Shown piece by piece: positions 2,755 to 41,545 of a stretch of DNA of 64,000 nucleotides. This DNA comes from Glomus cerebriforme (taxonomy: Eukaryota > Glomeromycota > Glomeromycetes > Glomerales > Glomeraceae): positions 1-64,000 of the forward strand of contig QKYT01000585.1 in assembly GCA_003550305.1 (NCBI GenBank), read 5' to 3'. Under the pieces are notes generated by a model. It did not search any database. It had not been told where the DNA came from and saw nothing but the letters and a program-made list of their open reading frames with translations. The number at the start of each line of letters is the position of its first letter. Positions within the stretch are counted from its first letter, which is position 1. Both the position numbers and the translations under genes were made by a program.

Positions 2755-3922
2755 AGGTTGCTTGTCAAAACCCATCTGATCCAATATGAAATGCTGAAAC
2801 TCTTATATAGTGTCAAAATTGCGAAACTGCAAAACTGCCAAACTGCCAAAACTTATGAAATTGCCAAAATTTGTAAACCCTTTATAATAAGTTTATCCAT
2901 AGTTTTGGCACAACAAGTAGTAATATTTTATATGAGTTTTGGCATAATTTCACCATTTTAATCTTTTTTACCAATTTTTTTTAATTTTAAAATAATTCAA
3001 TAAATTTATATGTAATTGAATAATTTATTGTAATTTTTATGTTTATTTAATATCATAATAAAAGATTATATTTCTTTGAAGTAAACTCCCCATCCATATC
3101 ATCTCTGAGTTTAGTTTGTCTGAGGAGATTTGGCAACCTAGAAAAATAAAGAAATGTTAGTAACATTTTTTTAATATTAAAAAACTCTTCCCCCTATTTT
3201 CAACTTACATTTCAAGTCCATTTCACCCAAGAAGTTTGGTAACCTAAAAAAAATAGAAAAAGAAACATTAGTAACATTTCTTTAATATTAAAAAAAATAT
3301 TCTCTCTTTTCAACTTACATTCCAAGTTCATTTCGCCTAAGAAGTTTGGTAACCTAAAAAAAATAGAAAAAGAAATGTTAGTAACGTTTCTTTAATATTA
3401 AAAAAATATTTCCCCTTTCCAACTTACATTCCAAGTTCAGTTCATCCAAAGAGTCCGGTAACCTAAAAAAAATAGAAAAAGAAATGTTAGTAACATTTCT
3501 TTAATATTAAAAAAAGTCTCTCCTTCTTTCAACTTACATTCAAGCTGCCTAAGAAGTCTGATAACCTAAAAAAAAATAAAGAAACATTAGTAATGTTTCT
3601 TTAATATTAAAAAAATTTCCCCCTTACAACTTACATTCCAAATCCAAAATTTGACAAACCTAAAAAATAAACAAAAAAAATATAAAAAATTTTTTAATAA
3701 AAAAATTTTTTTAATTATAGATTATCAAATGATTATCAAATGATTATTAAAATGCTAAAACTGTATGTATGTCATATGATATACTATGCTGAACTACTGA
3801 AACAGTTTCAATAGTTTTGGTAGTTTCAGCAGTTTCAGCATTTTAGGTGATTTTGTGAAACTAATTTTGACAGTTTCACATATGTCATTTCACTAAAATC
3901 TCCTAGTTTTGGCAAGCAACCT
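2755..3922. mobile_element. TA-flanked inverted-repeat element carrying intron-like array A
   Basis: The ends are AGGTTGCTTGTCAAAAC and the inverse of AGGTTGCTTGCCAAAAC, and each end is flanked by TA (2753-2754 and 3923-3924). A TA target duplication fits Tc1/mariner-type elements. The 1,168 bp interior has no transposase ORF. It holds runs of short repeats resembling gaaactgccaaaact near both ends, an AT-rich part, and five tandem intron-like units on the minus strand (3128-3665). It sits in the protease region of the gypsy element. Confidence 0.8.
3128..3665 (-). repeat. Intron-like tandem array A (5 units)
   Basis: Read on the minus strand, each unit has a GTAAGTTG donor (plus-strand acttac at 3203, 3313, 3422, 3532 and 3629), an AT-rich body, TACTAAC or TACTAAT, a U-rich tract and TTTTAG, then a 28-35 nt exon-like spacer. 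The period is 97-110 bp. The branch-site motif lies in an inverted repeat of the form GAAATGTTAGTAACATTTC. In the unit near 3580-3600 both arms are changed together (GAAACATTAGTAATGTTTC), so pairing is kept. No long reading frame runs through the spacers. Confidence 0.8.
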
Positions 3923-4499
3923 TACAAAAATGATTGTAGTCATGACAAACGGAGCGTGAACCAGATCTTTAAGAATAGTGGATAACATTTTCATTATCAT
4001 AAGAAAAATTAAAATCCCACTTCTTTTCAAATTTTAGATTCTAAGGATAACTTATTCTAGGCAATAACTAGTTGAAAGAAGCCAATGCTACCATGAGTTG
4101 GAAACAATTAACTCTAACTATTCACAAATATAATATTACTGTCAGAATCTGCATCATATTTACCAAGACAGCTAAAGTTACCACTTAAGAACTGGACTAT
4201 AACTCTGATGATGATTACTATGAAGATAAACTTTTGGATGAGTATTATATCTATTATTTAGACATGACATGAAGAGAAAGTCTCTGAGAATGAAATGACT
4301 TAAAACCCTTTAAGTGATGTATATTTACCATATAATTTGAAAGAAGAATCTGAAGAAGAAGACACCTCAAATAACAATAACCCTGCAATTTTTTTTGCAA
4401 AAAGTGCTCAAATAAGCAAAAAAGAAAAAACCCTAGAAGATTAACATGTAGGACCATTAGATTATTACCAACAACAAGCATTCCAATACTTTTTGGAAG

Positions 4500-5870
4500 A
4501 ATATGCTGATATCTGTGTGAAAGGACAAACAGAAATTGGTAAAACTACTATTGTAAAGTATAGAATTCACACCGCTCAAAAACCATACTGAACAAATCCT
4601 GAAAACACTCAATTTTTAAAGAAAGAGATTAAAAAAATGGAAGCAAATGGAATCATTCATCATTCACATAGCCTCTGGGCCTTACCAGTTGTTATAGTAG
4701 GAAAGAAAGGAGAAGACAAAAGACTATGCATTGATTATCACAAGTTGAATACCCTCACAAAAATTGATGCCTATCCTCTATCAAGAATCGATGACTTATT
4801 AGATTCTTTAGGAGGATTCCAATAAGTTTATTACCTTAGACTTATTAGCCAGTAGATATTAGTAAGTATCCATACAACCTGAAGACATAGAAAAGATAGC
4901 TTTTATTACACCTTCAGACCTCTATAAATTCTTAGTTATGCCTTTTGGTTTTAATAATATTTTAGGAACCTTCTAAAGATTCATGAATTGAATCCTAAAG
5001 AACTATCTTGGACTTTTTGTAGTAGTTTACTTAGATAACATTATCATCTATTCAAAAGGATCCCTAGAATTGCATCTAGATTACATAAAACAAATCTTTC
5101 AAACCTTAAGAGAAGCATAGCTTTGCATCAAGTTGAAAGAGTATCACTTCTGTTACCCTTTTTTAGCTTTCTTAGGTCACATAGTAAGATAAGAAGGTAT
5201 CCATCCAGACCCAGAAAAGATCAAAAAAATCAAAAGTTTTCCTATTCCTAAGACCTTAATAACTCAATTAAGAGTAGCTTTAGAATTATTTGGATACTAT
5301 CGCAAGTTCATCAAGGATTTTGCTTAACATACTAAACCTCTAACCATATTATTTAAAAAGGAAATGCCTTTTCAATAGACAGAAAAATAACAAGTCGCCT
5401 TCGATAGACTTAAGAAAAGACTCATCAAATCTCCTATTCTATAATATTCAGACTTCGAACAACCTTTTATCCTATACATTGATGTTTGTAAATTTGGACT
5501 TAAAGCAGTACTATCTCAGAAAATTAATGAACAAGAGTGTGTAGTTGTATATGCCAGTTGAATTACCAACAAAGTTAAAGAAAATTACTTCATAACTGAT
5601 CTAAAATATCTTGCTATAGTATGGGTTGTTAAATATTTTCACCACTATTTAAGTCATTTCTTTTCAATTGTTACAGACCACTTAGCACTTAAGTGGTTAA
5701 AAACTTCAAAGATGCCTAAAGAATGTAGAGCATGTTGGATTATAGAACTACAACAATACAATTTTACCATTGAACATCACTTAGGAAAACATAATGCTAA
5801 TGCAGATGTGCTATCTAGAATGTATGAGAATAGTGACCCTACCCAACTTGAAGAAGAGAATGAGTGCTTC
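4500..5870 (+). pseudogene. Reverse transcriptase and RNase H remnant
   Basis: Recognisable gypsy-type motifs appear in order: the finger region with LCIDYHKLN (about 4725-4755), TPSDLYKFLVMPFGFNN (about 4910-4960), the catalytic box YLDN at 5028-5039, LGHIV (about 5170), and RNase H with ILYIDVCKFG (about 5470) and a late DHLALKW (about 5680). The second catalytic aspartate of the YXDD box is asparagine, a G-to-A change, so the polymerase would be dead. About a dozen stops interrupt the frame, and nearly all are explicable as C-to-T or G-to-A transitions. Confidence 0.82.
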
Positions 5871-6650
5871 CTAATCATAACTTATAATGCAAACATTGAA
5901 GAAGAAGAAGAACCTGAAGTTGAGTCTTTGTCTATAGCCCTTACCAGAAGCAATAAAAGGAGAAGACTAACACCATATCAAAAGTTTTCTTATGAGAGTA
6001 AAAGTGAATTTCCTGAAGAAAGTGAAAGCAAAATTTCTAAAGTAAAAAGTGAAAAATCTATGCCCTTGACCATTTCTAAACTATACCCATGCTGTGAACA
6101 TATTATTTGTACCTGTGAACCAGAAAGTTCTTTTATTAATACAAAGGAGAGAAAAATGAAAGTGAAATTGAATAGGAATACTATTCTAATGATGGCGTCT
6201 CTAATTCTGAAAAAAGTGAAAGCATGGAAATGTACGATATGAAAACTTCTGCTTATAACTTTACAAAAAAAAATATTGAGCAAATTTATCGTACAAGTAT
6301 TCAAGTTAAGCAAATTATCGCAAGCTAACCAATAACTAGAAGAGAAAGTAAGTACATCTGGGAATGTGACACTGAAAACCACCATATCCACACTTACTGT
6401 AAAGCATGTAAAAAGAATTTACCAGCCTATGGAACTATTGTTTATCATTGTATTTGGAGTTTCTTCCCTAGACAATTCCATTCCAATATGAACTCCAGTA
6501 TTTTAGTAAATATACCATTGTGAAAAGAACCCATCTTAGTTCAATGTAAGAATACCGTAGTATATTTAAGACTCTTAGAATGTTTCTACAATAATTTACT
6601 TATTCATACTACCTCCCTTGAACCTATCGTTGCAGAGTTAGATTAGATTT
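5870..6650 (+). pseudogene. RNase H-integrase connector with Cys/His cluster
   Basis: After the RNase H/connection end (ADVLSR at about 5800) there is an acidic Glu/Ser-rich stretch, then about 300 bp (6340-6640) that still reads as a Cys/His-rich segment (ENHHIHTYCKACKKN, then CIWSFFP). The segment is longer than the usual linker of gypsy elements. It could be an extra zinc-binding module peculiar to this family or a remnant of a separate domain. I do not recognise it. Confidence 0.4.
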
Positions 6651-6719
6651 TTTCAAATATTTTTGTTTTTAGTTAACATTTCTTTATGGTAAAAGCAAAA
6701 GTGTTTACATTGTGATGAA

Positions 6720-7990
6720 TGGCCAATTAAAATGGATACCCAACATTATTATAATTTATTAAATTTTATTAGTAATTATATATATCCTTCAGAATTTAGT
6801 AAAGTACAGCAAAAGCAATTACAAAACCAATCAAAATATTATATAGTCAGAAACAATTTACTCTATAAGAAAGATTAAAACAATCAAAATAATTTAATTA
6901 AAGTAGTACAAAAATATGAAATGAAACCAGTACTCTATATGTTCCATAATGATCCTATAGCAGTATACACCTTTAAAGATAGAATAATGAATAAGATGAA
7001 GAAATGATTCTTTTGGCCTCAAATGTTTCAATAGTACCTACGTAGAGTTATGTGATGCATGTCAAAGAAGGGAAAAATCAAAGTGATAGGAACCTTTACA
7101 TCCAATTCCAGTTGGATTATTTTTTTATCAAATTGGAATTGATTACATGAGACCTTTGAATGTAACATCTTAAGAAAATAAATATATAATTGTCACAATG
7201 GATTACATGACCAAGTGGTTAGAAGTAAAACCTGTGAAAGAAGCTATCACATAAGAAACTGTAATATTTGTTTATGAAAGTATTATTTGTCATCATGGTT
7301 GCTCTGAAAAAATCCTGACTGATAGAGAAACTCATTTTAATAATCAGCTCTTGAAAGAATTATTAAAGAAATTTGAAATTACATACTTAATGTTAACTCC
7401 TTACCATTCTCAGATTAATGAACTTATATAAAGATTTAATAGGATATTAATAAAAGCCTTATTATGAACAGCCATGAATCACTTAAATAATTGGGATAAG
7501 TTTATAGTTTCTGTACTCTTTGCTTATCATACTAGTTCTCATTCAACCACAAAGATATTACCATTTTTCCTTGTGTATGGAAGAGAAGTAAAATTGCCAA
7601 CTGATAGTACAGAAATAGAGGAGGAATCTAACCTAATTGAATACATAGATCATTAAGTGAGTACCTATCAGATGTTAAAAATGATATGCAACAGCAGATC
7701 AAGGCTGAGCAATAAAAACAAAAGGATTCCCATGATAAGAAATTAAAAAAGGAAATTAGATTTAAGATTGGTGATCAAGTTTTATACTATTATGCTACTC
7801 TAGATAAGCAATAGTAAGAAAAATAAGTTCCAAATGGAAAGGACTATATTACATACATAATGTAATTGGAAATAGCGCTTATAAACTAAGAGAATTATTG
7901 GAAAAAGTCCTAAAAATTCCTGTGAATAGAAGTTTTCTGAAAATATATAAAAACAGAAGTAACTGGCAACCCCTAATTATAGTTTCTTGA
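6720..7990 (+). pseudogene. Integrase remnant with GPY-like C-terminal region
   Basis: Broken frames hold the N-terminal HHCC-type zinc region (about 6940-7080), core segments around TMDYMTKWLEVKPVKEA (about 7195-7245), a better preserved stretch at 7474-7656 with AYHTSSH and FFLVYGREVKLP typical of the integrase core end, and a later FKIGDQVLYYY (about 7765-7795) resembling the GPY/F module. Multiple stops make it non-functional. It would have joined element cDNA to chromosomal DNA. Confidence 0.75.
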
Positions 7991-8374
7991 ATCAAAAATA
8001 AACAATTACGACTGTATACTTAAAGACCTCTAAAGAAATAACATTGTTACAAACCTAAATATTATGCTATAAAATGAAGATGAACCTCCTAATCAACAAA
8101 TAAATTCTCTTTTTTGACAATTGAGAAGAGCTGTTAGTAAAAGAAATTGAGTAGAAACTCTCTTAAATGCTTGGTATATTGAAGAAGTCATAGAAACTAA
8201 GACTTTTACTTTAATGGAAAGAACTCTCTATATAAAACTATTTTCATCCTATTACCAAGAAGTAGTAGTTTAGACTTATTATATATTTGAATTCTTGAGA
8301 ATGAAATAAATTAACCACTCTAGAAATATTACTTTAACAATAATCTCAAGAATTGGAATTACACAATACCTATA

Positions 8375-10214
8375 GGTGCTGGCAAAATTCCATAATTACA
8401 TCATTTCAGTATTTCAACATATGTTATAATTAATTCCGTAACCGTAATAAAATGCCGTAAATCATAAATGCCATAATGCCGTAATGCTGTAATGCCATAA
8501 TGCCATAATTTAATTTAATGCCATAATGCCGCAAATCTACATGCCATAAATAGGTGACTTTTTTTTAAAAAAAACTAACATTTGTAAATAAAAAAAGGAA
8601 ATTTTTTTTTAATAAAAGCATTTTAATAAAATATTTTTTAAATATAATAAAAAAATTTTAGAAATAATAAAAATTTTCTTAAAAAAATTATAAATCATTA
8701 TAAATTCTACCATTCTGGTAAGTAGGGAAAGGTTTTTTTTTGATATTTATGTTCAATAAATGACATTAACTTCGTTTCTATTTTCTTTTTTTTTAGGAAT
8801 GGTTCTTGCAGATTCTTGATAAGTGAAAGAGAGATTTCTCTGACATTTATTTTAAGAAATGGTATTAACTTCATTTCTATTTTTCTTTTTTTTTAGGAAT
8901 AGTTCTCGTGGACTTAGTTTTTGGACTTTTCTGGTAAGTAGAGGAGAGTTTCTTTAACATTTACTTTTAAGAAATGACATTAACTTCATTTCTTTTTTTA
9001 TTTTTTTTAGGAATGATTCTAGCTGACTTTCTGGACTTTCTGGTAAGTGGAAAGGAATTTTTTTGACATTTACTTTTAAGAAACAATTATGAAATGATCC
9101 TAACTTCATTTCTTTTTTTCTTTTTTTTTAGAAATGGTTTTTGCAGACTTTTTGGACTTTCTNGTAAGTGGAGGAGGGTTTTCTTTGACATTTACTTTTA
9201 AGAAACAATACTAACTTCATTTCTTTTTTCTTTTTTTTCAGGAATAGTTCTTGTGGGCTTTTTGGACATTCTGGACTTCCTGAACTGTTCCTAAAAAGAA
9301 AGAAAAATAGAAATGAAGTTAATGTCATTTCTTGAACATAAACGTCAAAAAAAAACCTTCCCCTACTTACCAGAACAGTAGAGCCTGCCAGAACTATTCA
9401 TCTGTTCCTAAAAAAATGAAAAAAAAAGAATTAATAAAAAAGTCACCTATTTACAGCATGTAGATTTATGGCATTACGGCGTCAAATTAAATTATAGCAT
9501 TACGGCATTACGGCATTTATGATTTATGGCATTTTATTATAGCGTTACGGCTAAACCTAGTCCTGAAACTGAAATATTTCAGATTTGCCAAAATTCTGAA
9601 ACTGAAATCTGAAACAGAAAATATTTTTGAAATCTGAAATTCTGAAATCCAAAATTCATACCGAAATGCTGATATTCTAATTGGCCAGCATTATGGAATT
9701 TTCAGCCGAAATTATTAAATTTTCTAAAAAGGATATTTTATGTTATACAATTATCAAAACTATTTTTACCAAATTTGATTTTTTGTGAAATAATATCACC
9801 TAAAAAGGAAATGATCTATATGTGAGCTTAATCTGACAATTTTTTGGCATTTTGGCCTAATTTTGGATTTAGTAATTCTGGCTGATAATAATCACGTGAT
9901 TTTTACTATTTGCTAATTATTTAATATAAATAAAAACTTTAGCAATAAATATCTTGGCAACCAGTGATCACAGAAAGATGATCTTATTACCATTAGACTC
10001 ATCTAATCGAGAGAAATCCAATTAACTATAAATCATCTTTCTAGAATTAATAAATGGAAAGATAAAATTTTTATTATTTCAGCTAATCAGAATTTCAAAA
10101 TAATTTCAGATTTCAGTTTCAGAATTTCAGATTTCAGATTTTGGGTAAATTAATTTTGGAGCCATCCTTAATTACGGCACATACTGTAACCGTAAAAATA
10201 ATTCTGACGGCACC
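8375..10214. mobile_element. Inverted-repeat element with intron-like array B, nested in the gypsy 3' region
   Basis: The ends read GGTGCTGGCAAAATT and the inverse of GGTGCCGTCAGAATT and are flanked on both sides by TATA (8371-8374, 10215-10218). A second, inner inverted repeat rich in ATGCCGTAA motifs lies at about 8435-8535 and 9465-9552. Between these arms is the intron-like array (8718-9370). From about 9560 to 10150 there is a further inverted-repeat segment made of gaaatctgaaac-like motifs, probably another nested insertion. No protein-coding gene is visible. Confidence 0.68.
8705..9372. repeat. Intron-like tandem array B (5 plus-strand units and 1 inverted unit)
   Basis: Plus-strand donors GTAAGT lie at 8718, 8934, 9043 and 9164, with a degenerate one near 8819. 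Acceptors of the form T(n)AG follow each. The spacers resemble gaatggttcttgcagac. Before each acceptor is a hairpin such as GAAATGA, loop cattaact, TCATTTC, with the branch-site-like TTAAC or CTAAC in the loop. The last unit (9291-9370) is inverted, so on the minus strand it again reads donor to acceptor. One ambiguous base is present at 9163. Confidence 0.78.
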
Positions 10215-10425
10215 TATAACAATACCAGGCTTTACTTGAAGAAACTATGACCATTGCAAGAGCTCAGTTATAGGAGAAGGAAGTTGTTAATATGAAATAT
10301 TACTGCGCTGATCTACTGTACAGTACTGTATTATTCTATGATCGTGATTTCTATGATCATGGTAATCTTAATAATAGTAGTGATATTAATAATCTTAGTA
10401 ATAATTAGGATAGTTAAGATATTTA

Positions 10426-11023
10426 TTGCAGTTTTCGAATTAGTGTGATCAGCAATTAATTTTCTATAAATAAAAAATCAATTTCAAGACTACAAAAATA
10501 AAATCACATTTTACTATAAAAAATATAAATATTATTTGATCTATATAATGCTAAGCCACTATTGCATAATATTATTAATTTTTTTTTATTGTTCGCTTTT
10601 GCTTTTGCTACAGCTTATAAACCGATTTCAATACTGATTTCAATTCCTAAACGATTCCTAAAGTTCATACCAATTTTTACCATAGTAGCAGGTAATATTT
10701 TTTTATTTATTTTACTAATTGTTTTCCTTTTTTTTATTTCTAACTATTTTTTTTATTTCGATCTTTGGTTCTTAGGCGGAAGGCTTGGAAAAAGTAGCGC
10801 TTCTTTATTAGTTCTTTTTTGTATTAGTCTCTTATTTTTTAAAGGGAGATTTTATTTTTTTTAAAATAAAAATTATGAAACAGTTTCTTTTTTTGTATTT
10901 TGGACTTTTGGTAGTATAAATAAATGGTATTTTTTTAATGTTTTCAGTTGTTTTCAATATTTTTGGTGTATTAATTTTAATTGATTGACAAATCACCTGA
11001 CCATACCAATTCGAAAACTGCAA
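10426..11023. mobile_element. 598 bp TA-flanked MITE inside the 3' LTR
   Basis: The terminal inverted repeats begin TTGCAGTTTTCGAATT (16 bp identical), and similarity continues for about 11 more bp with three mismatches. TA flanks both ends (10424-10425, 11024-11025), and the intact 5' LTR has a single TA at this point. This pattern fits a non-autonomous Tc1/mariner-type element. Open frames inside it are hydrophobic or lysine-rich by composition and show no transposase motif. Confidence 0.88.
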
Positions 11024-11066
11024 TAATATATTTATTTTCTTTATTATATTTATTATATTAATATAT

Positions 11067-11452
11067 TGAAAATTTCTAAGTTTACACAGGATGTCTGGAT
11101 ATGAGTCACGTGATTTTTACTATATGATAATTTATCACCCCTGTATTACATCTTCTGTTTTCATTTTTTCTATTTATTCTAGGGACAGAATTTTTCAAGT
11201 GTGAAATCCTATTTATTACATTTTATTTGTCACATTCCTAATTTTGGCCAGATTTCATAATGCCAGCCAGAGTATCCTTTTTTGGAATATTATACTACAT
11301 TACACAATCCAAAAAGGCAATTTTATTTCTCTCAAAAATCAAATTTTAGGTTACACTAAATTTACAAAAGGTAATTTAATTGCAGATCATTTAATTCTGG
11401 CTGGAATTATGACCCCCATATTCAGACACCCTGTGTACAAATAGAAATTGCC
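11067..11452. mobile_element. 386 bp MITE with 8 bp target duplication inside the 3' LTR
   Basis: It is flanked by direct repeats taatatat (11059-11066 and 11453-11460), and the intact LTR has this site once. The ends are imperfect inverted repeats containing TACACAGGATGTCTGG on the left and its near-inverse on the right, followed inward by TCACGTGA. The interior shares sequence with segments near 13565, 14171, 30835 and 40140 (on various strands), including gacagaatttttcaagtg and tggccagaattat motifs. It is a non-autonomous DNA transposon. The 8 bp duplication suggests a hAT-like mechanism. Confidence 0.8.
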
Positions 11453-11744
11453 TAATATATTTATTATATTAGTTATATTTATGATAGTTAATATCTTTTT
11501 ATTATATTTTATTTTTGTAAATATTCTGAGAATTTTCTTATCTTTAGTTCTTATAACTTTAATTGAATAATAAAATAACTTTTACTTTAAAAATCCTATA
11601 TCATTTACTAATTAAAGAGCAAACTGAAACTTAAAAACATAAATTATTATTACCTTTATCATTATAAACTTAATTAATTTTTTATTTCATACTTAAAAAA
11701 TCAAAGTTAAGATAAAGGAATCAAGAGAACAATTAAACATAACA

Positions 11745-12004
11745 GCATACATGTTTCACTTCATTCTGCAACTCTGTAAATATGTATACTTTCTGAATTT
11801 GCCTCATATTTTTGCATGTTCTTCCCTTTGGTCAGGTTTTTTTTTGAAAAAAAAAAATTTTCGTAAAAAAATTTAAACTCTTTATTTAAAGTACTTTAGT
11901 GAGTATTGTTTGTAATACATAAAAATGTTGGTATGTGAATACATTCTTTACCAAAATGGAAAAATATTATTTATCACACTTACACAATATGAGTCCTTAG
12001 AGTA
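11745..12004. other. Intergenic, no gene seen
   Basis: AT-rich sequence just outside the 3' LTR. A short motif tcctttggtcaggtttt-like occurs here (about 11825) and again near 16518, suggesting a dispersed repeat fragment. No ORF or RNA gene is supported. Confidence 0.5.
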
Positions 12005-12365
12005 TACATGTGGCCAAAATATCTATAGTTTCAGTAGAGTTTCAGTTTCAGAGTTTCATTCAGTTTTAGCTTAAAGATCCTCTTTCTGAAACTAGTTTCA
12101 GATTTTTTTTAATTTAAACCAGCATTATAATTTTGGTCAGCATTATAAATTTATGTTAAAGTTTTAAGTTGACAATTTTTTAGATTTAAAATATATTACA
12201 CAAAATTTTATTGCTTAAGTGTAATATTACATAAATCCAATAATGTCAGCTGGATTAAGAGTTTTTTGACTTTTGACTAGAGTTACAGATTTTAGCCAAG
12301 TTTCAGTTTTAGGATTTGGACTTTCAGATTCAAACTTTATTATTAGGAAGTTTTGGCTACATGTA
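12005..12365. mobile_element. 361 bp TA-flanked MITE
   Basis: Terminal repeats TACATGTGGCCAAAA and the inverse of TACATGTAGCCAAAA are flanked by TA on each side (12003-12004 and 12366-12367). The interior contains many agtttcag-type motifs and no ORF. It is a non-autonomous element, Tc1/mariner-like by its TA duplication. Confidence 0.72.
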
Positions 12366-13564
12366 TATTTCAGAGTGAAAACTGAAATAAGACCCTCCTT
12401 AGATATTATTATGCTTTGATTTTTTCTTATATCCTAATATTAGCACCAAAATAATCCTTTTAACCAGTCCTTCTGAATTCCCCTTCAAGATAAATATCCT
12501 TTATCCAGTTCATCTGAATTTCTCTTAATATACCTAAGTCTTCAAACTAATATAAAACATTAGTGAATTTTTAAAGATCAGATATTAGTGCTAATCTTCA
12601 GGATTAAGGATACTAATACTCTAATATATAATGGATTTTCAAACTAGTACAAAATATTAAAAGAAGATTTATAGAAGCCAGCTATTAGTACTAACCTTCA
12701 GAAAGAAAAGACTATCTAAAATACTAAAACTAAAAGATATAAAAAAGAAATAAAAACCTAAAATACCTCTAATTACTTTCAGTTTCTAGTTACCCTAATG
12801 GATGCTTCAGATAAATTGAAATGATTGCTTATACTGTTTCATCCAAAAGCCATTACCAAAAATCCTGTCATCTATACCTTCCTACCCAATAGGTTTTCTC
12901 TTCAAAATAGGCCAATTCTTAATTATACAAAAGTGCATATTCACAGAATCAAGACAACTACTTATGTAAAATTATAGTTAATTTTTCCATTTCTTTTTTA
13001 GAATCTTGATTCTTAATATATCTATTGCAAAAAGAAAATTGATCTTGTTTCTATCATCCAAACTGATTCTACTTACACAATATATTCAACACAGTCCTAT
13101 ATTCTCTAAACCTTTTAAACTTTTTTTTAAAAATTTTCTAATACTACCAAATATGATGTAACTTTAAGAGGCAAAAAGCAAAAATAGGGATCACTGCTGT
13201 AAAACTAAAACCTAAGGAATGTATTTAGAATGGGGATGACTCTGTCAGTTCAGTTTTGGTTCACAAAACTGAAATGGATGGGAATGAACTAAACTGATGG
13301 AATTGGTTCTAGAACTGGAGTTCAAAACTGAACTAACTGAAAATGGTTCTAATATTTTAATTCTATAATAATAATTCATGATATTCTTTATTAATTTATT
13401 AATAACAATTCTCTATATAAATTTTATAAATAGAGGTTAGAACTGAATGCACCAAACTGGTTTTAGACCCAGTTCCAATTGGATTTCTCATAATTTGGAT
13501 TAACTAGTTTCAGATCATAAAAACCAGTTTGTATTTAAACTGGGTGCAACCAGATGCTTGAATT
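12366..13564. other. Gene-free AT-rich stretch with degenerate repeat near 13230-13560
   Basis: No coding frame is supported. From about 13230 to 13560 there is a segment rich in cagttcagttttgg and aactggttttagaccc motifs in both orientations, the look of a decayed inverted-repeat transposon. I could not fix its ends or a target duplication. Confidence 0.35.
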
Positions 13565-14170: not shown

Positions 14171-14715
14171 GTAATATTACACAATCCAAAAAAGGCAATT
14201 TTGTTTCTCTCAGAAATTGAAATTTTGGATTACTCAAGATTCTTAAAAAGGAGGACGTCTAAAATAAAGGCAAATCACGTGACTTTAAAAAAAATTTGCT
14301 TATCCAAATAAAAGTTTCTCCTACTTATATGACTTCCTAAAATACATATTATAAATATATTTTAGCCTGCTCTGCAAGTTTACTTGGAGTGTAAAATGAG
14401 GTTATGAATATCACTTTTGATTTATTTGACTTTTTTTTATTTTCATCAAAATTAATTTATCCATTTTTGAATATGATTGGCAAAGTTCGTTCATTCATAT
14501 GTAAAGTTAAAACCAGTATTTTTAATCTACTTTATTTTCTTAAGTAAATTTACAGAGCAGGCTAAAATACACTTACTCTAAAATTTTTAATAATTAGTTT
14601 CAAAAATAATTTATAAATTTGTATTTTTGTTAATCACGTGATTTGTCTACGCTTTAGATGATCTTCTAAAAAGGCAATTTTATTGCAGATTATTTAATTT
14701 TGGCCAGAATTATAA
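14171..14715. repeat. Older repeat copy split by a nested element
   Basis: Positions 14171-14250 and 14674-14715 together match 11279-11413 (motifs ttacacaatccaaaaa, ggcaattttattt, ttttggccagaattat) and, in reverse, about 40080-40195. The match is broken exactly at 14251-14666 by another element, which gives the order of insertion. Confidence 0.65.
14251..14666. mobile_element. 416 bp inverted-repeat element nested in an older repeat
   Basis: The ends carry GACGTCTAAA / ATCATCTAAA followed inward by CAAATCACGTGA on both sides. Direct repeats taaaaag flank it (14244-14250, 14667-14673). A homologous repeat elsewhere (11279-11413) lacks the insertion. The termini resemble those of the 183 bp element at 30802-30984, so they probably belong to one family. 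No ORF is visible. Confidence 0.68.
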
Positions 14716-14839
14716 ATCACGTGATACTGACGATGCATTGCCATTGGCAATAAATTACAAAATCCAAAAATTAAATCTTTGTTAAAATTAAAACAAAAAA
14801 CTATAATCTTAAAAAAAACTAATTGTTTTCTTTTTTTTT

Positions 14840-15180
14840 ATTTTTTTAGGAACTCAGATTGTTTGAAATGTTGGGTTCTTTGAAGGTAAAATAGAAAAAA
14901 GGAATTAAATGTACTATTTTACAGAAAAGAAATTAATTTTTTTCTTTTTTTTTATAGGAAACCTTCCTGAGATAATAAGGGTGTGTGAATTTTTTTTTTT
15001 ATTAATAACTTAAAGAAAGAAACCTAATTTTTTTTTTTATTTTTTTTTTTTAGAAGCGTGAACTATTTGGACTCTTTAGAGGTAAATGGAAGAGAGAGAG
15101 AAGGGTTTATTAAATCTTAAAGAAAAATCCAAATTGTTTCTTTTTTTTTATTTTTTAAAAACACAGACTTTTGATAATTA
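14840..15180 (+). repeat. Intron-like tandem array E (about 3 units)
   Basis: Acceptor-like T-rich tracts ending in AG occur at 14849, about 14957 and about 15052. Donor-like GTAAAA and GTAAAT follow short spacers such as aactcagattgtttgaaa and agcgtgaactatttgg. The period is about 95-110 bp. Donors are weaker than in arrays A-C and I see no clear branch-site hairpin, so this is the least certain array. It lies in gene-free DNA. Confidence 0.5.
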
Positions 15181-18231: not shown

Positions 18232-18279
<48 letters not shown>

Positions 18280-22566: not shown

Positions 22567-22706
22567 AAAATATACATATATTTATACATATACATATATA
22601 TTTTTATTCTTAATTTTGTGTACAATAAATAAGTTAAAATTATATTTTTAAAATTAATAAATATTACAACGAAGACTTAACTTGTTTTTAACTATAAAAT
22701 TTTTGT

Positions 22707-30801: not shown

Positions 30802-30984
30802 GGGTACGTCTAAAGCGGAGCAAAATCACGTGATTTTCGTAAAATTTTTGGCCGGAATTATGGTGATAAATAGGATTTCACCTATCGAAAAAATTCTGTC
30901 CCTAAAATACTTAGGAAAAATGGAAAATGAAAGTGACGTGGGATGACAGATAATCACTATGATCACGTGATTTTAGACGTTCCC
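30802..30984. mobile_element. 183 bp MITE with 8 bp target duplication
   Basis: Direct repeats ttatttta flank it (30794-30801, 30985-30992). The ends are GGGTACGTCTAAA and the inverse of GGGAACGTCTAAA, each followed inward by AATCACGTGAT. The interior matches the other copies of this family (gataaataggatttcac, gaaaaaattctgtccc). The duplication length suggests hAT-type integration. It is the cleanest copy in the window. Confidence 0.85.
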
Positions 30985-31118
30985 TTATTTTAGTAACTGA
31001 CTGATATTACTGTAATTTTGACCCTGAAAAAATGCATACAGCTAACAGTAAAATTTTTTTGGTTGGACCTGACCTCTGTATGCATATTTTGGGATCCACT
31101 TTAATTATTATAATATGA

Positions 31119-31798: not shown

Positions 31799-31806
31799 TA
31801 ATATGA

Positions 31807-33875
31807 TAATTACAAAAGTTCAACTTATTTTAGTCATTTTCTTTAAAGTTGCCTTTATTAGATATCAATCACAAATTTGTAATAATATTTAATTTAGTGC
31901 CAAATTACTGATCCAATAGAGTAAATTGGAATGAACATTATTTAAAGACCATCTGTAAATCAATAATATGATTAAAAATAATTAATTGTAGAGAAAGTAT
32001 AGAGTAAAATACCCATTTAACAATAACACATTATCATGGGTATTCTTGTTTAGCAGTTCACAATGATAAGTAAATAGTAGGTTTTATTTTATTTTTTTAT
32101 TTTCCATTTATAAACAATGTGGCAATATGCAATATATATAGACAAATTTAAAAAATAATGATTTATTAAAGCTTACTGGTAATTATAGACAAAAATAATA
32201 TATATTATTGATTCAAGTTCAGTATTCAAGAACTATAATAATGTAAAATAATGTAATAATTAAAAAGAAAAATAAAGAACAAAAAAAAACCAAATGTTAA
32301 TAAAAAAAATTTTGTATGAAACTGAAATTAATAATATTTAACAATAAAAATAGTACAAAGAAAAGTTATTTATTTGTTAGAATTTAAATTATAAAGTATA
32401 ATTACTTCACAATTTTTACCATTTAATGATAACTTAATTTGAAATTGTAAAGCAGAAATACTTCTTTTTTGCTTCCATTTTGACATTTTGGAATAGTATT
32501 ATCAAAACTATCATAACAATGGCATCACTTCTGAGTATTTAACAAATCACATCAACTGTATTACTAACACTGTCTATAACTAAAGAAGTAGAATCGGGAT
32601 CTGAATGGAGATTAAAGGTATCATAACTTAAACTATTATAAGTTATAACAATAGCATTACTAACAATTACTTCCAAATTTAAAACTTTAAACCAATTACA
32701 TAAATTACCTTATATGGATTCTTTAAGTGCCTCTTTTATTACTATTAAGTATTAGGTGTACTGTGTTTCATTTTTACTATCTTTATGGGAAATTATAGAC
32801 CTAAAATAGGAAAGAATGATAAGAAAGTTTTTGCCTGAATGAGTAGAATATAAAAAAATATAGAAAATGGAGATATTTGTAATTCTTAAAATAGTTATCT
32901 AATATTACAAACTTCATAATTATAATTATAATAAGTTGTTAAGGTATTTTTTTTAATAAAAATTATCAGTTGTGAAAATAACTATTATAGAAAAATTTTA
33001 GGTTAAATAAAGTTATTAAACTTTTAAAATTAAGTATTAGCTATTAATGACTTTATATCAAAACCTTTGCACTCTGAAGCCAATATAATACTTTGATCAA
33101 CTGTTACCTCATTCTCAGATTCTCTTCATTCCATATTAAAAATCTGAAATTCAATATCTACAGTACACCAAAGCAATATTTAGATTATATATTTGAGATA
33201 TATTCATAATCTTTAATTAAAAAACATTTTAATTATCTAGTATTAATTTTATGAAAGAAAAATTGAATAAAAGAAGAGATAAAAAATACATAAATGATAA
33301 TATACAATTTCATACTAAAAATTAAAAAAAAGGAATCATAAATTACTAGTTTTCTATATTTGCATAGATATTTTTGCTTTAACATAGTAATTGTTTATTT
33401 GTTTGTTTTATGTACAATATACATTTTAAAATAATAAAATTTAAATCTATTTGAATGATCATAATTTTAAACAAAGAAAAATTGAAAATAATAATAATAT
33501 TATTATTATTCCCAAATTAAAAGAGATAAAGTCCTTTTCCTTCCCTCAGCAACTTTAATTTTCTTTTGAACTAACTGAAATACTAAAACTTAACTTGTAG
33601 ATACATTAAACTTCTAAAAAACTATATTAAAAAGCAAAAAAGAAATATCTTTAAATGAAAAGAAATAAAAGAAAGAAAAAATATGAAATGTTAAAAAAAG
33701 ATTAAAGAAAAATCAAAGAATTATGAAGTTCAAGTTTGCTTTATAAATACAAAATCTTATGAATAGAATATAAATACACCAAAAAAGAGAAAATTATGGT
33801 AAGTTTGTGATATTAGAAATTTTCACATGATAACAATCATGTGATATAGTTTGATATCAAATTTCTTTTTAATAT
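31807..33875. other. 2 kb AT-rich region, no gene seen
   Basis: Very AT-rich with many stops in all frames. I see no repeats with defined ends, no RNA gene and no motif-bearing ORF. Confidence 0.5.
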
Positions 33876-33993
33876 AAAAAAAAGAATGCTGAAAAGTGAC
33901 AATCGCAAAAAAACTCTTTCTCACTTTTTACATTTTATTAGAAATACGCAGTAAATTTTACAAAATTTTTATCGCTTAATAAAATTGTTTAAA

Positions 33994-35569
33994 ATGGGAG
34001 TAACAGTATCTACCTATTCAGACAAACTCTTTAACGAATATATTCGCAACCTCGAGTGCAAAGACATAGGTAACAAACAGTTCGACGAAGTAACTGCCTT
34101 CACACAATGACATAACCTTTGGCATGAGTTGAAGTTTAAAGACGGCAGTACGAATAACCTCGGACGTTTTGTCAAAGGAGTTTCTGACTACACACAGTTT
34201 TTACCTACAATACTATTTCTTATCGGGGGAATAGTGAGTAAATTTTATGAAGATATATTGGACGCCAACTTACGAAGTCTTGACGAGGCCTTAGAGGAAA
34301 TAACTAGGTATGAAATTACCATCGATGAACTCAAAGCCAAACTTGCTGCGGCAGGTGCGGCGCCCCATCAGACTATCAGAATACAGCATCCCCAAAAATC
34401 TTTAGCAGAAAAAATAAAGAAATGGAACTTACCAATAACGGCAACATCCTTAGGATCGACATCAACAGTAAATACCAATAGCAAACAGTTGAGTACGCCG
34501 ATTGTTATACAGAATGATCCTCACATTCCACATTCACAAGAGATACCGCTTCAGGAGGACGATCACATGGAAATAGAGAAAACGATTTCCAAAACCGTCC
34601 CTTCACCACCTGAAAATACTTCACAGAATCAAACAAAGCCCACATCGAAAGCAGATGACTCTGCGAAACCTCCAAAGTCCCCTAAAAAGGCTAAGAAGGA
34701 GCGCCCTCCTCACATCATTACAGGATTCACGGTACTGCCTAAATTACAACCAAACGTGCATGATGTAATGTTATATGACATTCCGGGTAAATGGGATGCC
34801 GAGAAATTAACAGAGGAGATAAACAAACACCTAGGTTCTCTTGTGAAAACCACCCTATCGAAACAAGGCAAATACACCTGTGTAAGGGCCACAATAGTAC
34901 TGCGAACTTCAGTACTTAAAGCATTTGTAGAAGGTCAATGGCAAATATTATTAGGCAACACACTCGTCAGATGGTTCCCGGCGGACTGATCTTTGGTACA
35001 ATGCAAACAAAGAACGGTCTTCCAAGCCGTATTAACTGACTTTGGCAAAGACTTTGAAGAACATCTTATTTTCCAGGATAAGGAATTTATGAACCATCAT
35101 CGTCTTGCCGCTATCAAACTGGTGAAAGACCCCAAAGGTAAACAGAAACTAATAGGGTTCTTCCGAACCTCAGATGATCTTAACCAAGCCTGTCAAGCGG
35201 AATTTAAGATCCACGAACTCGTCGTCAAATAGAAGATAGATAAGGTCAGGAAGAAAACGTCTGACCCCTCCTACCTATCGGCAAAACTTTCCTCTTCAAA
35301 GAACAAGAACCACAAACCCTCCTCTAATAAATAGATCTGTCGCTGGAAAGAAAAATGACAAATGCACCGCCAACGATAAAAAATATGTTCATATTGAGAA
35401 ACAAATAGATCATTTATCCAGCATGGTAACTGATTTGCAGTCGCACTTCGAATACCTCGGCAGTATCCCTCCTTACCTGGCTTACGACAATAAGTTTCAC
35501 AAGATCACGAAAGGAAAATTCAAATCACTGGTCCCGAATGTTCATAGTTCCAATAATAAAGGTTCCTGA
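33994..35569 (+). pseudogene. ORF1-like RNA-binding/gag-type protein, nearly intact but interrupted
   Basis: From ATG 33994 one frame runs to 35232 with only two interruptions, TGA at 34108 and TGA at 34987. After the TAG at 35230 coding character continues, with a frameshift near 35300-35340, to a TGA at 35567. Features: a coiled-coil candidate at 34255-34350, a Pro/Lys/Ser-rich basic linker (about 34600-34710), then a compact domain (about 34735-35230) with VMLYDIPGKWDAEKL and RWFPAD that has the look of an RRM-like ORF1 domain. Both internal TGA codons could each arise from one transition. Family not named from memory. Confidence 0.65.
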
Positions 35570-36000
35570 TCTGGTTTTTTCTTCCTGTCCGTTCGGAACT
35601 GGTACATCTTTTGGCCCCTCGTGTAGTTGTCTTAGGGTAGATAAATGGTCTTTACCTGGATTTAGATAGGGTTTTTAATTTGATTTAAAATTTTTTTTCC
35701 AGCTTCTCTTTCCTTGCAGACGCGTCAGAACATGCAAGACCACCGCCATTTATGGGACTACATAGAGCGCCTAGTGTGTTTTTTTTTTTCTTTTTTCTCT
35801 ATTGGACTTTACCGTCGTCCTTCTTATTTTCCCTTAGTTTAGTTCCCCAGTGCGATAATTTTTCATGTTTTTTTCGTAGCTTGTCCAGTTCACCCATTTG
35901 GGGGGCTCAGTCACTCACTCATATAATTGTGTAGTTGTGTATTGCTTTAATAAAGTTTCCGCCAATATCACGTGAGTGGCAAAATCAGGCGTTACAAACA
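35570..36000 (+). other. 3' untranslated part of the half-LINE element
   Basis: No coding frame. It is T/C-rich in places, with a TATCACGTGAGT motif (about 35967) and an AATAAA signal before the A tail. Confidence 0.5.
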
Positions 36001-36030
36001 AAAAAAAAAAAGAATACTGAAAAGCTTGTT

Positions 36031-39000
36031 ATCAGGAAGTTTTGAAGGTGTTGATATACACCAAAAAACGTGTTGAATAACACTATCAGTTGTTTAACAT
36101 GTTGTAAAACATCTGTATACTGAAGTTTATCAATACATACAATTAACATACGCATTTTTTTATACCAACAGTTGTTAAACACATTATACACTATTGNGTA
36201 ATANCNATATATNAANACNACTTAATATTTTTTCAATATAATAAATAGTTATAATAAATAGTTATTATATAATTATAATTTTATTTATTTTAAATTTACT
36301 TATCTAATAAATATATTAAAAAATAATTTTTTTATAAATTAAAATAAAATTTTATTAAATTTATTAAAATCTTTAAAATCGGGATCCAGATTATTATATT
36401 GGCCAATATTAAATATAATTCTGGCCAAATTTGAAAATAATTCAGGCCAAAACTGTCTGATTAGTTTTAGAAAATTTTTTCTTTTAAAATATCTATCTTA
36501 CTACTGATATGTTTTCTTTTTGTCACTATGAATGGGTGGAGGAAGCAGCAATGACTCTTTCCCTGTAGGTACTAATGACCTCTACCCATCCATAGAGGAG
36601 GGGCTTTTCACAAGATTGATTAAAAAAAAATTCAAATTAAAAAAGAAAAAAAAAATAAAAAAAGGCTCATTATATACTTTTTTGTATCACATGTATGTAT
36701 CACATGATATGAGCTGCAGTTTATTTTAAAAAAAATAACTGCACATCATGCTTATTAATTAAGCTGCAGCCACAGTTTATTTTAGTTAATTATTTATTTA
36801 AACCTTAAATTGGCAACTTTTAATTGCCATTTTAACTTTGAACTTTATTTTAGAAATTGAGAAATGGTTAGTTTTTTTGCAAAATTTACTATTTTTTTTT
36901 AATTTTTTTTTAAAAAACATTTTTAACATTTCTTCTTTTTTCTTTTGTAGGTCTCTCAGTTTTTGGTTCAATATTGGAAAGTGGGAACCAGTAAGTTTTT
37001 TCATAAAACTTACCATTTTTTTTGTTTTTTTTTAGAAATGCTTATTAATGTTTCTTTTTTTTCTTGTAGATTCTTCGAGCTCTTTGGTTCAAAATGGAAA
37101 GGGAAATGGTAAGTTTCTTCATGAAACTTACCATTTTTTTTGTTTTTTTTAGAAATGCTTATTAATGTTTCTTTTTTTTTTGTAGATTCTCTGAGCTCTT
37201 CAGTCTGGAATGGGAAGAGAAACGGTAAGTTTTTTCGCAAAACTTACCTTTTTTTTTTGTTTTTTTTTTAGAAATGCTTATTAATATTTCTTTTTTTTTT
37301 TGTAGGTTCTCCAAGCTTTTCAGTCCAGAATGGAAAGGAAAATGGTAAGTTTCTTTGTGAAACTTATCATTTTTTTCATTTTTTTTTAAAGAAACATTTC
37401 TAATATTTCTTCTTTCTTTTCTTGTAGGTTTTCTATGCTTCGGTTTGATACTGAAATCAGAAACAGTAAGTTTCTCAAGTTTTTTTGGGAAACTTACTGC
37501 ATTTTTTATTTTTTTTTAGAAATGCTTATTAACATTTCTTTTTTTTTCTTGTAGGTTCCCCAAGCTCTTTGGTCCAGAATGGAAAGGAAAACGGTAAGTT
37601 TTTTCATGAAACTTATCATTTATTTTTTCATTTTTTTTTTAAAAAACATTCTAACATTTCTTCTTTCTTTTCTTGTAGATTCTCTGTGCTTTCAGTTCGA
37701 TACTAGAATCAGAAACGGTAAGTTTCTCAAGTTTCTTTGAGAAACTTACCATATTTTTTTTGGTTTTCTTTTATTAGAAACATTTTTAACATTTTCTTTC
37801 TTTTTCTTTTGTAGTTCTCTTTGCTTTCAGATTAGTATGTGAAATTGGGAATGAAAAGTTTTTTCGTAAAACTTGCCATTTTTTTTCTTTTTTTTTTAAA
37901 AATATTTTCTAACAGTTCTTTTTCTTTTTTTGTAGACTCTTTTTCAGTTTGGGCACTTGGAATTAGAAAATGGTAAGTTTTGTTATTCTTTTCTTGTAAA
38001 ATCTCCTTCAGTTTGGGCACTTAGAATTAGGAAATGGTAAGTTTCATAATGAAACTTACCATTCTTTTTTTTTATTTTTTTTTAAATAGAAACATTTTTA
38101 ACATTTCTTCTTTTTCTTCTTGTAGATTCTTGGATTTCATTTCAGGTATGGAAGTTTTTTCGAGAAATTCCCATCTGATATATTTACTTAAAGAATCATT
38201 AGTAGAAATGGTACTAACGTTTCTTTTTTTCATTTTTTTTTGTAGAATTAGGCTTTTTTTCGATTTCAGCTTGGAAATCTGGTAAGTTTCAAAGTTATAA
38301 TTTTAAAACTTTCTTTTCAGAATGTAAGTTTCATAATAAAACTTCATTTTTTTTGTTTTTTCTTTAAGAAATGTTCTAACTGAATGTTTCTTCTTTTTTT
38401 TTATAAATTCAGCTCTGGGAATTTGGAATTGGAAACATAAGTTTTGTAATATTCATTTTGTTACAAACTTCATTTTTCAGTTTTTTTTCTTTGTAAAGAA
38501 ACGTTCTCACTAAACATTTCTTCTTTTTTTGTAGGTTTGCTTCTGGATTTGGGATACCAAAATGTAAGTTTTATAATGAATGTTTAATTACGAAACTTCA
38601 TTTTTTCATTTTTTTCTTTATTAGAAACATTCTAACTGAATGTTTTTCTTTTTTTTGTAAATTTGGTTTGTTTCTTAAAATTTGGGTTTTTGGAAATTAG
38701 AAACATAAGTTTTGCAACTTAGCTGTGAAACTTAGTTACTTTTTTGTAGGTTCTGAGTTTAGAGATTAGAATTGAATAGTTAGTTAGTATAACATAGTTA
38801 GTATAGTATACTTAATATATCCAGGAAGAATTTGTAATTTAATACATTTTTAATAAATGAAAATAGTTTAAATATAATAAAATCAATTAACAATGCTTTT
38901 ATTTATTAAATGTAGTTAATATATGCTAAATTTGTATTGTTATATACATTTTTTAACTAACCTAGTGTTGTTATATACATTTTTAAACTGCTATTATTTT

Positions 39001-39150
39001 ACTGTATATTGTTATACACCTAAAAAAGTGTTGCGCAATGTATTTTTAATCACGTTGGTTGATAAAGGATTTGTTGCACAACATTTTTTTGGTGTTGAGT
39101 AATACATGGCGTATGTTTATACTTTATACACCTGTTTAAAACTTCCTGAT
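36031..39150. mobile_element. 3.1 kb inverted-repeat element carrying intron-like array C
   Basis: The ends are ATCAGGAAGTTTT and its inverse AAAACTTCCTGAT. Subterminal stretches on both sides share gtgttgaataacac- and cgtatgt-type motifs. I could not find a convincing target duplication, partly because the half-LINE element sits directly next to the left end. Several ambiguous bases occur at 36197-36220. The interior has no transposase, but a long tandem array of intron-like units (about 36940-38770). Confidence 0.6.
36940..38770 (+). repeat. Intron-like tandem array C (about 14 units)
   Basis: Units of about 100-130 bp each have a GTAAGTTT donor (for example 37109, 37466, 37594, 37720, 38037), a body, a GAAATG...CATTTC-type inverted repeat enclosing TTAAC or CTAAC, a long T tract and TGTAG, then a 30-45 nt spacer often starting ttctctgagctcttcag-like. 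The donor itself is paired: AATGGTAAGTTTCA with TGAAACTTACCATT (38033-38063, 14 bp). At 37464-37499 the stem is CAGTAAGTTTC with GAAACTTACTG, changed on both arms. Units toward 38.4-38.7 kb are degraded (ATAAGT donors). Confidence 0.82.
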
Positions 39151-39719
39151 GATATTGCTTGACCTTTTTAATAAATAGTTTGATTTTTTCCAAATTTTTT
39201 TAATGATCATACTAATCCAAAGTTTCAGTTTATGGTTAGATTAATTTTCAAATATAGATTAATCTTTTCTAGGATTTTTATAGCTTATTGTTTATGATTT
39301 ATAGCTTATTGCTTTATGCTTTATGCTAGCAATCAGCTTTTATAGAATAATGGTTCAATATATATAAAAAAAATTTTTTTAAAAAAAATTGATCAATATT
39401 TTGCAGCATTTTTTTTATGATGATTACTAATTATAAATAATTAGTTTTCTTTTTACAGTTAAATTGGAAGATTGAGAGGTTTTATTTTAAAAAAAAATTT
39501 TTTGAAAGAAAAAGAATAAAAAACTTTTATAAAAAGTAACTTTAAAATCTAGAAAATTACTTGGAATAGGAAAAGCTTGGGTTTCTAAAGAGGAAATATA
39601 AACCATAATAAAGAAGGAATCTTTCCATTATAAACATGAACATTTAGGTAAAGAATTAAGCTTTAGTAGAAGGAAATTTTGTTCTTCTATAAAATTTATT
39701 TTTATATTAAATTAAACAA
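39151..39719. other. AT-rich stretch with short coding-like remnant
   Basis: Mostly AT-rich. Around 39555-39715 a plus-strand frame without start codon reads LGIGKAWVSKEE, then one stop, then KKESFHYKHEHLGKELSFSRRKF. It may be the broken coding part of whatever carried array D. Not identified. Confidence 0.3.
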
Positions 39720-41545
39720 ATAAATATTTTTTTTTACTTTTTTTTATAAGTTCGACTCTCTCTTCAAAATGATGATAATAAATAACAACAGGTTAGTATT
39801 TTTAATTCTAATAATTAATATAAATTTGTTTTTATTGATTAAATAATTTATTTTTTACTTTTTTTCTAGCTTCAGTTTCTTACTTCGGGATGCAAATGCA
39901 TGAGCAGATTATTAATAAAGATGAACCTGTGAGAGATTAAGTGGATTTTGAATGAATAAGAAATATAGGTGGGATTATTTTATAGTTTATTATGTAATAT
40001 TAGTTTTTTTAAATATAAAATTTAGAAGTTTGCTATTTATTACTAGTGGTAATCATCACTGATGTTTTCAAATTTGGTAATTCCAGTAATTCCGGCCAAA
40101 ATTTAAGTGATCAACAAATAATTTCCTTTTTTGGAATCTTGTATAATACAAATTTCAATTTTGAAGAGAAATAAAATTACTTTTTTGGATCATGTAACAT
40201 TACCTAAGTATTCATAAAAGGAAATTCTGATCAGCGTTAAAGTTTTGGCCAAAATTAAGGATATGATGACTAACATGTGATGAATAGACTTTCACATCTT
40301 GAAAAAATTGTTTCTAAAATAAATAGTAAAAATTGAAAACTGGGGATGTAACACAGTGTGATAAATTATTACATATAAAGTTATATGATTACCAGTGATG
40401 ATCACTGGCAGTGATACATAGTAATTTTATAAAATTTATTAACTTTTTTTTTCTTATTTTTACAGGTTTGGTCCTCACTTTAGGATGCAGATACGTGAGC
40501 AGATTATTAATAAAGATGAATGCATAAGGGAATTAAGTGTATTTTGAATAAATAAGAAGTATAGGTAGAATTATTTTATAGTTTATGTAATATTAGTTTT
40601 TTTTAAATATAAAATTTATTAACTTTTTTTTCTTCTTATTTTTACAGGTTCAGGTCCTCACTTTGGAATACAGATGCTCAAATAAAGATGAACGCATGAT
40701 AATTAAGTGCATTGCAGATGAATAAGAAATATAAATGGGATTATTTTATTCATTTTATTAAGTAGATATTACTTTTTTTTAAAAATACAAATTTATTAAT
40801 TTTTTTTTCTTCTTTTTCAGGTTTGGGTTCTTGCTTCAAAATGCAGTGAATCATTATTAAATATGATTAGATTAATGGATTCTAAATAATTAAGAACTTA
40901 GGTAAGATTATTTTATTCAGTTTATTAAGTAATATTACTTTTTTTAAATAAAATATTTATTAACATTTTTTTTTTTATTTTTTTCTAAGTTTAGCCTCTC
41001 TCTTTGGCAAGTGAATTATAGATAATAATAATGATAAGTGATAGGTCTGTTTTAATTTATTTATTAAATAATAGCTTTTAATAAAATATTTATTAATTTT
41101 TTTTTTCTTCTTTTTTTTTACAGGTTTGATCTTTCACTTCAGAATGCAAATGCATGAGTGGATTCTTAATAAAGATGAATGCATGAGTGTATTAGTGGAT
41201 TATAGATGAATAAAACTTATAGGTGGGATTATTTTATTTGTTCAAGTAATATTACTTTTTTAAATATAAAATTTATTAACTTTATTTTTCTTTTTATTTT
41301 TACAGGTTTGGGTCCTCACTTCAGGATGTAGATGTTCGAATAAGGATGAATGCATGATAATTAAGTGGATTATGGATGAATAAGAAATATAGGTGGTTCA
41401 ATTTATTAAGTAATAATACTTTTTTAAATAAAACATTTATTAACATTTTTTTTATTTTTTTTTTCTTCTAGGTTTAATTCTCTTTTTGATAAGCAAATTA
41501 TAGATGATAATAATGATAAGTGATAGGTCTGTTTTAATTTATTTA
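39720..41545 (+). repeat. Intron-like tandem array D (about 8 units)
   Basis: Units of about 150-190 bp alternate a 60-110 nt exon-like part (gtttgggtcctcacttc ... gatgaatgcatgag ... gaataagaaatatag) with an intron-like part: donors AGGTGGGATT or AGGTAAGATT (for example 39968, 40566, 40913, 41222), attattaac-type branch region, T-rich tract and TTTTTACAG acceptors (about 40466, 40648, 40820, 41125, 41307). Sequence is unrelated to arrays A-C but the design is the same. One unit's intron part carries the insertion 40025-40428. Confidence 0.72.
40025..40428. mobile_element. 404 bp MITE inserted in an intron-like unit of array D
   Basis: The 10 bp direct repeat ataaaattta (40015-40024 and 40429-40438) flanks it. 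Other units of array D have this site uninterrupted. The ends show imperfect inverted repeats with ATCATCACT. The interior matches the dispersed family (ggccaaaattaagga, gaaaaaattgtttctaaaat) and, on the minus strand, the segment at 14171-14250. Confidence 0.75.

Follow-up and report, generated by a model that had tools for sequence, protein, structure and literature searches.

Introners are mobile sequences bearing spliceosomal splice sites, and many of their families have terminal inverted repeats (TIRs) and target duplications (49/130 and 72/177 families in the excerpted text of PMC9860276); those of Amoebophrya contain inverted repeats able to form hairpins, as excerpts of PMC9860276 and PMC7789003 describe. 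In introners one element is one intron in a gene. The tandem intron arrays discussed here lie in a 64,000-nucleotide stretch of DNA (the window; contig QKYT01000585.1, assembly GCA_003550305.1) from the arbuscular mycorrhizal, root-symbiotic fungus Glomus (Rhizophagus) cerebriforme. Unlike an introner, a single element in this system holds several introns, three to 11 in the array called A1 or more elsewhere, together with the mini-exons between them.

Three other systems offer partial parallels. Stwintrons reportedly propagate to gene positions in Hypoxylaceae (PMC12403724) and resemble the present case in that similar spliceosomal introns have multiplied in one fungal genome; stwintrons are nested, whereas the introns described here stand in tandem, with exons between them, within transposons. 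DNA transposons of non-autonomous kinds, fold-back elements among them, combine TIRs, target duplications and a variable number of internal repeats, with no coding sequence found, and the elements below share all of these features; what sets them apart is that their repeat unit consists of an exon plus a complete intron. Small nucleolar RNA (snoRNA) clusters are tandem exon-intron hosts of small RNAs and likewise repeat a non-coding exon and an intron, but the arrays are mobile, have introns of only about 70-100 nt and show no Rfam match in the window. No prior description of this design appears in the titles and abstract openings surveyed, subscription journals lying mostly outside that survey.

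Arrays of complete introns

The original prediction, made from the letters of the window, held that five tandem arrays share one design, a mini-exon followed by a complete spliceosomal intron. We scored each array with a strict intron rule: a GTAAGT-class donor, a YTRAY branch site, a tract of at least 80% pyrimidine and the first AG, within 55-110 nt. The control consisted of 400 dinucleotide shuffles per array, with real letters used and both strands scored. The five arrays are as follows.

3138..3646, minus strand: array A1, comprising five introns (69-75 nt) and mini-exons of 28-35 nt
8706..9247, plus strand: array A2, in which four introns of 77-89 nt pass the strict rule, followed by one inverted unit at about 9282-9400
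14800..15170, plus strand: A3, degenerate T-tract/AG acceptor repeats with donors GTAAAA/GTAAAT, failing the strict rule
36864..38740, plus strand: array A4, mini-exons mostly of 39/40 nt, introns of about 75-101 nt and a hairpin-set donor
39740..41540, plus strand: A5, repeats of an exon (about 85 nt) and an intron (about 83-100 nt)

The intron-array pattern is real for three of the five. A1, A2 and A4 hold 5, 4 and 9 sense sets, respectively, against a shuffle maximum of 1 in each case, and 0, 1 and 0 antisense sets, the single one in A2 arising because this array contains an inverted unit. Comparison with shuffled sequence, a check that the original prediction had proposed, thus places tandem, complete intron-like units within inverted-repeat elements far above chance in these three arrays. 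The claim that all five share the design does not hold to the same extent: A3 contains no set on either strand (shuffle maximum 1), and A5 barely qualifies, with one sense set, none antisense and a shuffle maximum of 1, the single set being equalled in 11/400 shuffles. A GT donor, branch site, pyrimidine tract and AG in the order and short-intron spacing of U2-type introns are therefore present in A1, A2 and A4, weak in A5 and absent as a set from A3.

Outside the arrays, 53,879 bp of the window yield one strict set on both strands together, and all rows of period at least 50 reported by Tandem Repeats Finder (TRF) within the window fall inside A1, A2 or A4. At the level of consensus units, which were hand-chosen and one of which (C210) came from a motif search, 7/7 intron-type units hold a set (matched by 0 to 28 of 3000 shuffles each), as do 0/8 other long-period arrays, these being some of those listed for the fetched loci. 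Three introns in an intact gene of the window, picked by eye and with the frame open across all of them, measure 89, 103 and 87 nt and have the donors GTATGT, GTAAGT and GTTTGT; the array introns seem no further from the consensus than these, three host introns being too few for a profile. The window also contains a calpain gene, 74-75% identical to its relatives from Rhizophagus irregularis and R. clarus.

Carrier elements

On balance we lean towards the reading that non-autonomous DNA transposons carry A1 and A4, and probably A2 as well, as internal cargo, and that splicing competence, not exon content, has been kept in them. A1 and A4 are located inside TIR elements, and A2 inside a fold-back structure.

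2753..3924, strand unassigned: A1 carrier, a TIR element (TAAGGTTGCTTG...) with flanks CAAAAATA / CAAAAATG, an 8-bp target duplication with 1 mismatch
36030..39151, strand unassigned: A4 carrier, a TIR element CATCAGGAAGTTTTG...CAAAACTTCCTGATG, its first base decayed to T in the window copy
8466..9534, strand unassigned: A2 carrier, a fold-back element with outer arms 8466-8569 / 9431-9534, 84% complementary, and inner arms 8706-8794 / 9294-9382

Relatives were sought in the whole assembly (112.5 Mb in 1117 contigs, with the window on contig C725); each genome DNA search scored 40 candidates (out of 312, 313, 692, 79 and 875), so that copy numbers are lower bounds. The A1 carrier is 1.17 kb long. 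Among 24 loci inspected, 16 copies have both ends, and 13/16 of these are flanked by an 8-bp duplication, in register, with at most one mismatch; of the remainder, one is duplicated after a one-base shift and two lack a duplication. Mismatched flank pairs reach this standard in 1/240 cases. Genome-wide, the A1 TIR pattern with up to two mismatches has 204 + 212 matches, against 0 for the reversed pattern, and therefore other elements with A1-type ends may be array-free. An 8-bp target duplication together with short TIRs is what a hAT element would have, although duplications of this length are also made by other superfamilies. When 143 matches to PF05699 (hAT) were compared by eye with 100 of the 416 A1-type TIR sites, none lay inside a TIR pair among the sites listed; at C184:123258-123413 a PF05699 match lies 3 bp outside an A1-type TIR-like site. 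The A1 element itself seemingly splits a Gypsy-like element (window 2660-7900) with an RNase H domain at 5562-6239 and, by eye, protease-like letters before 2700.

The TIRs of the A4 carrier differ from those of A1, do not start with CACTA and have 91 + 89 matches in the genome, against 0 for the reversed pattern. Judged by eye and without a control, 2-bp repeats, compared with the 2-3-bp target duplication expected of a CACTA/EnSpm-like element, suit seven two-ended copies (L041, L043, L045, L052, L058, L063 and L067), not the window copy. Locus L075 matches the sequence to the right of the A4 element (39152 onward), beside letters like those of its left flank, and may, by eye, represent an empty site. 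No open reading frame of at least 120 codons overlaps the A1 or the A4 element. The A2 fold-back structure has relatives in the genome; 25 introns could be parsed in six fetched A2 loci, of which 16 have GTAAGT and 9 show a branch stem measuring at least 6 bp.

These elements do not qualify as introners, since what moves is the whole element and not a single intron: several hundred bases separate the A1 array from the TIRs and duplications around it. Since the element ends lie outside the introns, the array splice sites could not remove the whole element.

Hairpins at the splice sites

Ten hand-chosen introns, five from A4, two from A2 and three from A1, were folded from their real letters. 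The donor lies in a stem of 9-16 bp in 5/5 of the A4 introns, pairs with a downstream stretch in 2/2 from A2 and is unpaired in 3/3 from A1. The branch site falls within a hairpin in 6/10 introns (part of A1, A2 and A4), and the folding z is -3 or lower in 5/10. The inner arms of the A4 donor hairpin vary by unit type (CTCAA/TTGAG, CGCAAC/GTTGCG) and match their own partner, with a mean of 2.03 extra pairs versus 1.15 when permuted (maximum 1.38, 200 permutations, n=76 distinct segments). In unit consensi whose CpG sites had been restored by hand, 7/9 branch segments form stems of at least 7 bp, versus 1.2% of shuffles. The introns do not resemble a mirtron: those of A4 and A2 give separate short hairpins, and 2/3 from A1 form one irregular larger stem with z about -1.

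Such palindromes could act at the level of DNA, binding a transposase or a host protein, with the likeness to introns a by-product. The A4 hairpin arms are conserved about as well as the donor, and in the A1 unit consensus (CpG restored) a near-perfect palindrome of 25 bp lies at the branch site, as this explanation would have it. It leaves unexplained, however, why donor, branch, T tract and AG follow in order almost exclusively on one strand (5, 4 and 9 sense versus 0, 1 and 0 antisense sets), and the consensus branch segments of A4b and A5 lack a stem of at least 7 bp or a branch palindrome; we regard it as improbable.

Masking of the donors raises a further possibility, that strong, hairpin-masked donors stall the spliceosome and lead to RNA interference, the arrays acting as, or being marked by, sources of small RNAs. 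Interference triggered by stalled spliceosomes is known from Cryptococcus. The paired donors of the folded A4 and A2 introns fit this idea, those of A1, unpaired throughout, do not, and we consider it very unlikely.

Coding potential and public gene models

The spliced A4 product matches only two protein models, both from G. cerebriforme, P0121 (C1645_469271) and P0122. The former can be rebuilt from the window and agrees with the array splice points of A4.

36864..38251, plus strand: one splice solution giving P0121 (C1645_469271), an exact rebuild from ten GT...AG A4 introns
36867-36950, 36991-37069, 37109-37185, 37225-37305, 37345-37554 (skips a unit), plus strand: introns 1-5 of the P0121 rebuild
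37594-37678, 37718-37814, 37835-37935, 37973-38125, 38146-38245, plus strand: introns 6-10 of the P0121 rebuild

Nine of these introns measure 77-153 nt, and the one that jumps a unit 210 nt; all ten end in TGTAG and 7/10 have a GTAAGT donor. P0122 found no placement on any fetched locus. These records, and the one stop-free spliced frame of the window A4 copy, are what speaks for ordinary multi-exon protein genes with short repeated exons. The other evidence runs the opposite way: A1 exons are 35 nt long in 82/89 cases, not a multiple of three, and those of A4 are 39 nt in 29/83 and 40 nt in 31/83. Of 48 spliced frames listed for 16 arrays, one is without a stop, C>T decay adding stops, and the protein set contains nothing related to the spliced A1 product. 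A conserved protein-coding repeat family was rejected on these grounds of broken frame and frequent stops, genuine protein genes seem to us a most improbable explanation, and P0121 and P0122 are read as gene-finder calls on real splice signals. Nor is a curated structural RNA or snoRNA host indicated, as the window has 0 Rfam matches at gathering scores; it likewise contains no tRNA.

Conservation, decay and the fate of splice signals

For A1, 158 units were kept of 284 hits, and for A4, 140 of 387, the rest being partial or duplicate. The A1 units (loci L001-L038 and window 3138-3646) depart from their consensus by 1464 transitions and by 289 transversions; 1222/1753 differences are C>T or G>A, CpG being hit worst and other contexts as well. 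Decay of the A1 copies thus resembles deamination or repeat-induced point mutation (RIP); in Gigaspora margarita, RIP signatures were not detected according to the excerpted text of PMC8647823. Because the changes in A1 are mostly C>T or G>A, A/T sites look invariant for mutational reasons, and per-site conservation there says little.

The A4 units tell more. Their transversion fraction reaches 0.110 for exons, 0.086 across the T spacer and 0.203 immediately 5' of the branch site, against 0.008 for the donor, 0.000 for the branch site and 0.011 along the 3' arm of the donor hairpin. Since donor, branch site and hairpin arms are far more conserved than the exons, the splicing signals look like the product of old constraint.

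Several observations weigh against retained splicing competence. The A1 and A4 units were found with profiles built on the window's own units, and the difference between splice core and exon in A4 (p = 0.0013) comes from columns that are not independent. Altogether 39/140 A4 units lack GTAAGT and 50/140 lack the core donor hairpin, and a stem over the donor would be expected to impede U1 binding. Splice-site C/G in A1 decays approximately like C/G in the same context (donor G1 12% versus a context mean of 17%, G5 7% versus 10%, branch C 13% and 26% versus 10% and 34%), which gives no clear sign of protection after insertion; the acceptor is perhaps an exception, with AA in 3/149 parsed units. 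Under a stricter parse, GT and AG are kept in 120/158 A1 units, and 17 could not be parsed. Finally, two degenerate junction patterns retrieved 0 intron-less joined exons genome-wide; this absence says little because an RNA-to-DNA step would be required.

The lack of clear protection in A1 makes relic cargo the strongest rival: a transposon would have captured part of a host gene containing short exons, an exon-intron pair would then have been amplified as a minisatellite, and the inherited splice signals would serve nothing in the element. The number of units changes freely, 16 A1 copies having 3, 3, 4, 5 (five copies), 8, 8, 9, 9, 9, 10, 10 and 11. A5, moreover, is low-copy and gene-like, with one relative among the 40 candidates scored of 692, L075, where the exon-intron layout is cleaner (three sense sets under the strict rule, shuffle maximum 1). 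Against a relic speaks that A4 keeps its splice core and hairpin arms while its exons diverge. We see relic cargo as a real but minority possibility.

Relatedness of the arrays

The original prediction called the arrays unrelated and their likeness independent convergence, a view that the alignments do not bear out. Among introns of seven unit types, 10/21 pairs align at p <= 0.01 when judged by dinucleotide shuffles; of these ten, one lies within A4, and the A1 intron is among the significant pairs with all six other types. Local exon alignments gave 0/21 pairs at p < 0.1, and global alignments of six exons, with A5 left out, 7/15 pairs at p < 0.03, uncorrected. The best exon pair, A4a-A4b, has 24/39 identities (p = 0.0005); that these two units have only such a number of exon positions in common, yet much of their intron, also argues against relic cargo. 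As both intron (10/21) and exon (7/15) pairs align beyond shuffles, most arrays more probably share a common descent than arose by repeated convergence. Judged from these alignments, a single old exon-intron unit, with exons drifting faster, likely stands behind most of them; the placement of A5 in this descent is doubtful.

Further arrays and inserted elements

A3 also holds a GTAAAATAG...CTATTTTAC palindrome, and a high-copy short element is inserted in its region at about 14245-14678. A similar feature interrupts A5.

40009..40439, strand unassigned: high-copy short element inserted in A5, outside the array design, from the genome DNA search

Matches to the A5 and A3 regions elsewhere in the genome are mostly pieces of these inserted short elements. 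L002, found by a motif pattern and hence biased, and L027:311-530, found by TRF, are two more intron arrays; their exons are different ones, and their branch palindrome is of the GGAAC...GTTCC type. The long-period arrays at L070:3188-3576 (71-bp units) and L022:14-651 (50-bp units) are without the intron design.

A model for transposon-borne introns

In the model that we favour, of splicing-competent cargo, the repeat unit would be a complete U2-type intron of about 70-100 nt with a mini-exon of 30-40 nt whose behaviour is not that of coding sequence. Most arrays would stem from a single old exon-intron unit that made its way into different transposon backbones, and unequal exchange would add or remove units without spoiling the pattern. 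The host would splice array-sense RNA, sometimes jumping units, and selection in the lineages that moved would have kept splicing competence rather than exon content. The pay-off, if any, might be that RNA crossing the element is processed instead of being left long, unspliced and hairpin- and T-rich, a suggestion we offer tentatively and with weak confidence. The original prediction had named variable splicing, concealment from the host and lariats or circular RNA as conceivable benefits. A bolder version, in which the arrays are 'intron satellites' carried because splicing of array RNA is itself useful to the element, is rather unlikely in our estimation. Donor and branch hairpins would then gate the spliceosome, leading to variable unit choice or delayed removal, and this gating could shape the silencing or the fate of transcripts that cross the element.

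Implications

An introner becomes an intron; the elements described here multiply introns inside themselves, and this fungus has at least two TIR families that do so. If the arrays are spliced, they would represent another route by which mobile DNA uses the spliceosome, and new introns and exons might arise from them. They also carry a warning for annotation, as two protein records of G. cerebriforme match array exons. Unclassified repeats make up 24% of the R. irregularis genome, as given in the excerpted text of PMC8647823, and elements of this kind could be among the unclassified repeats in these fungi.

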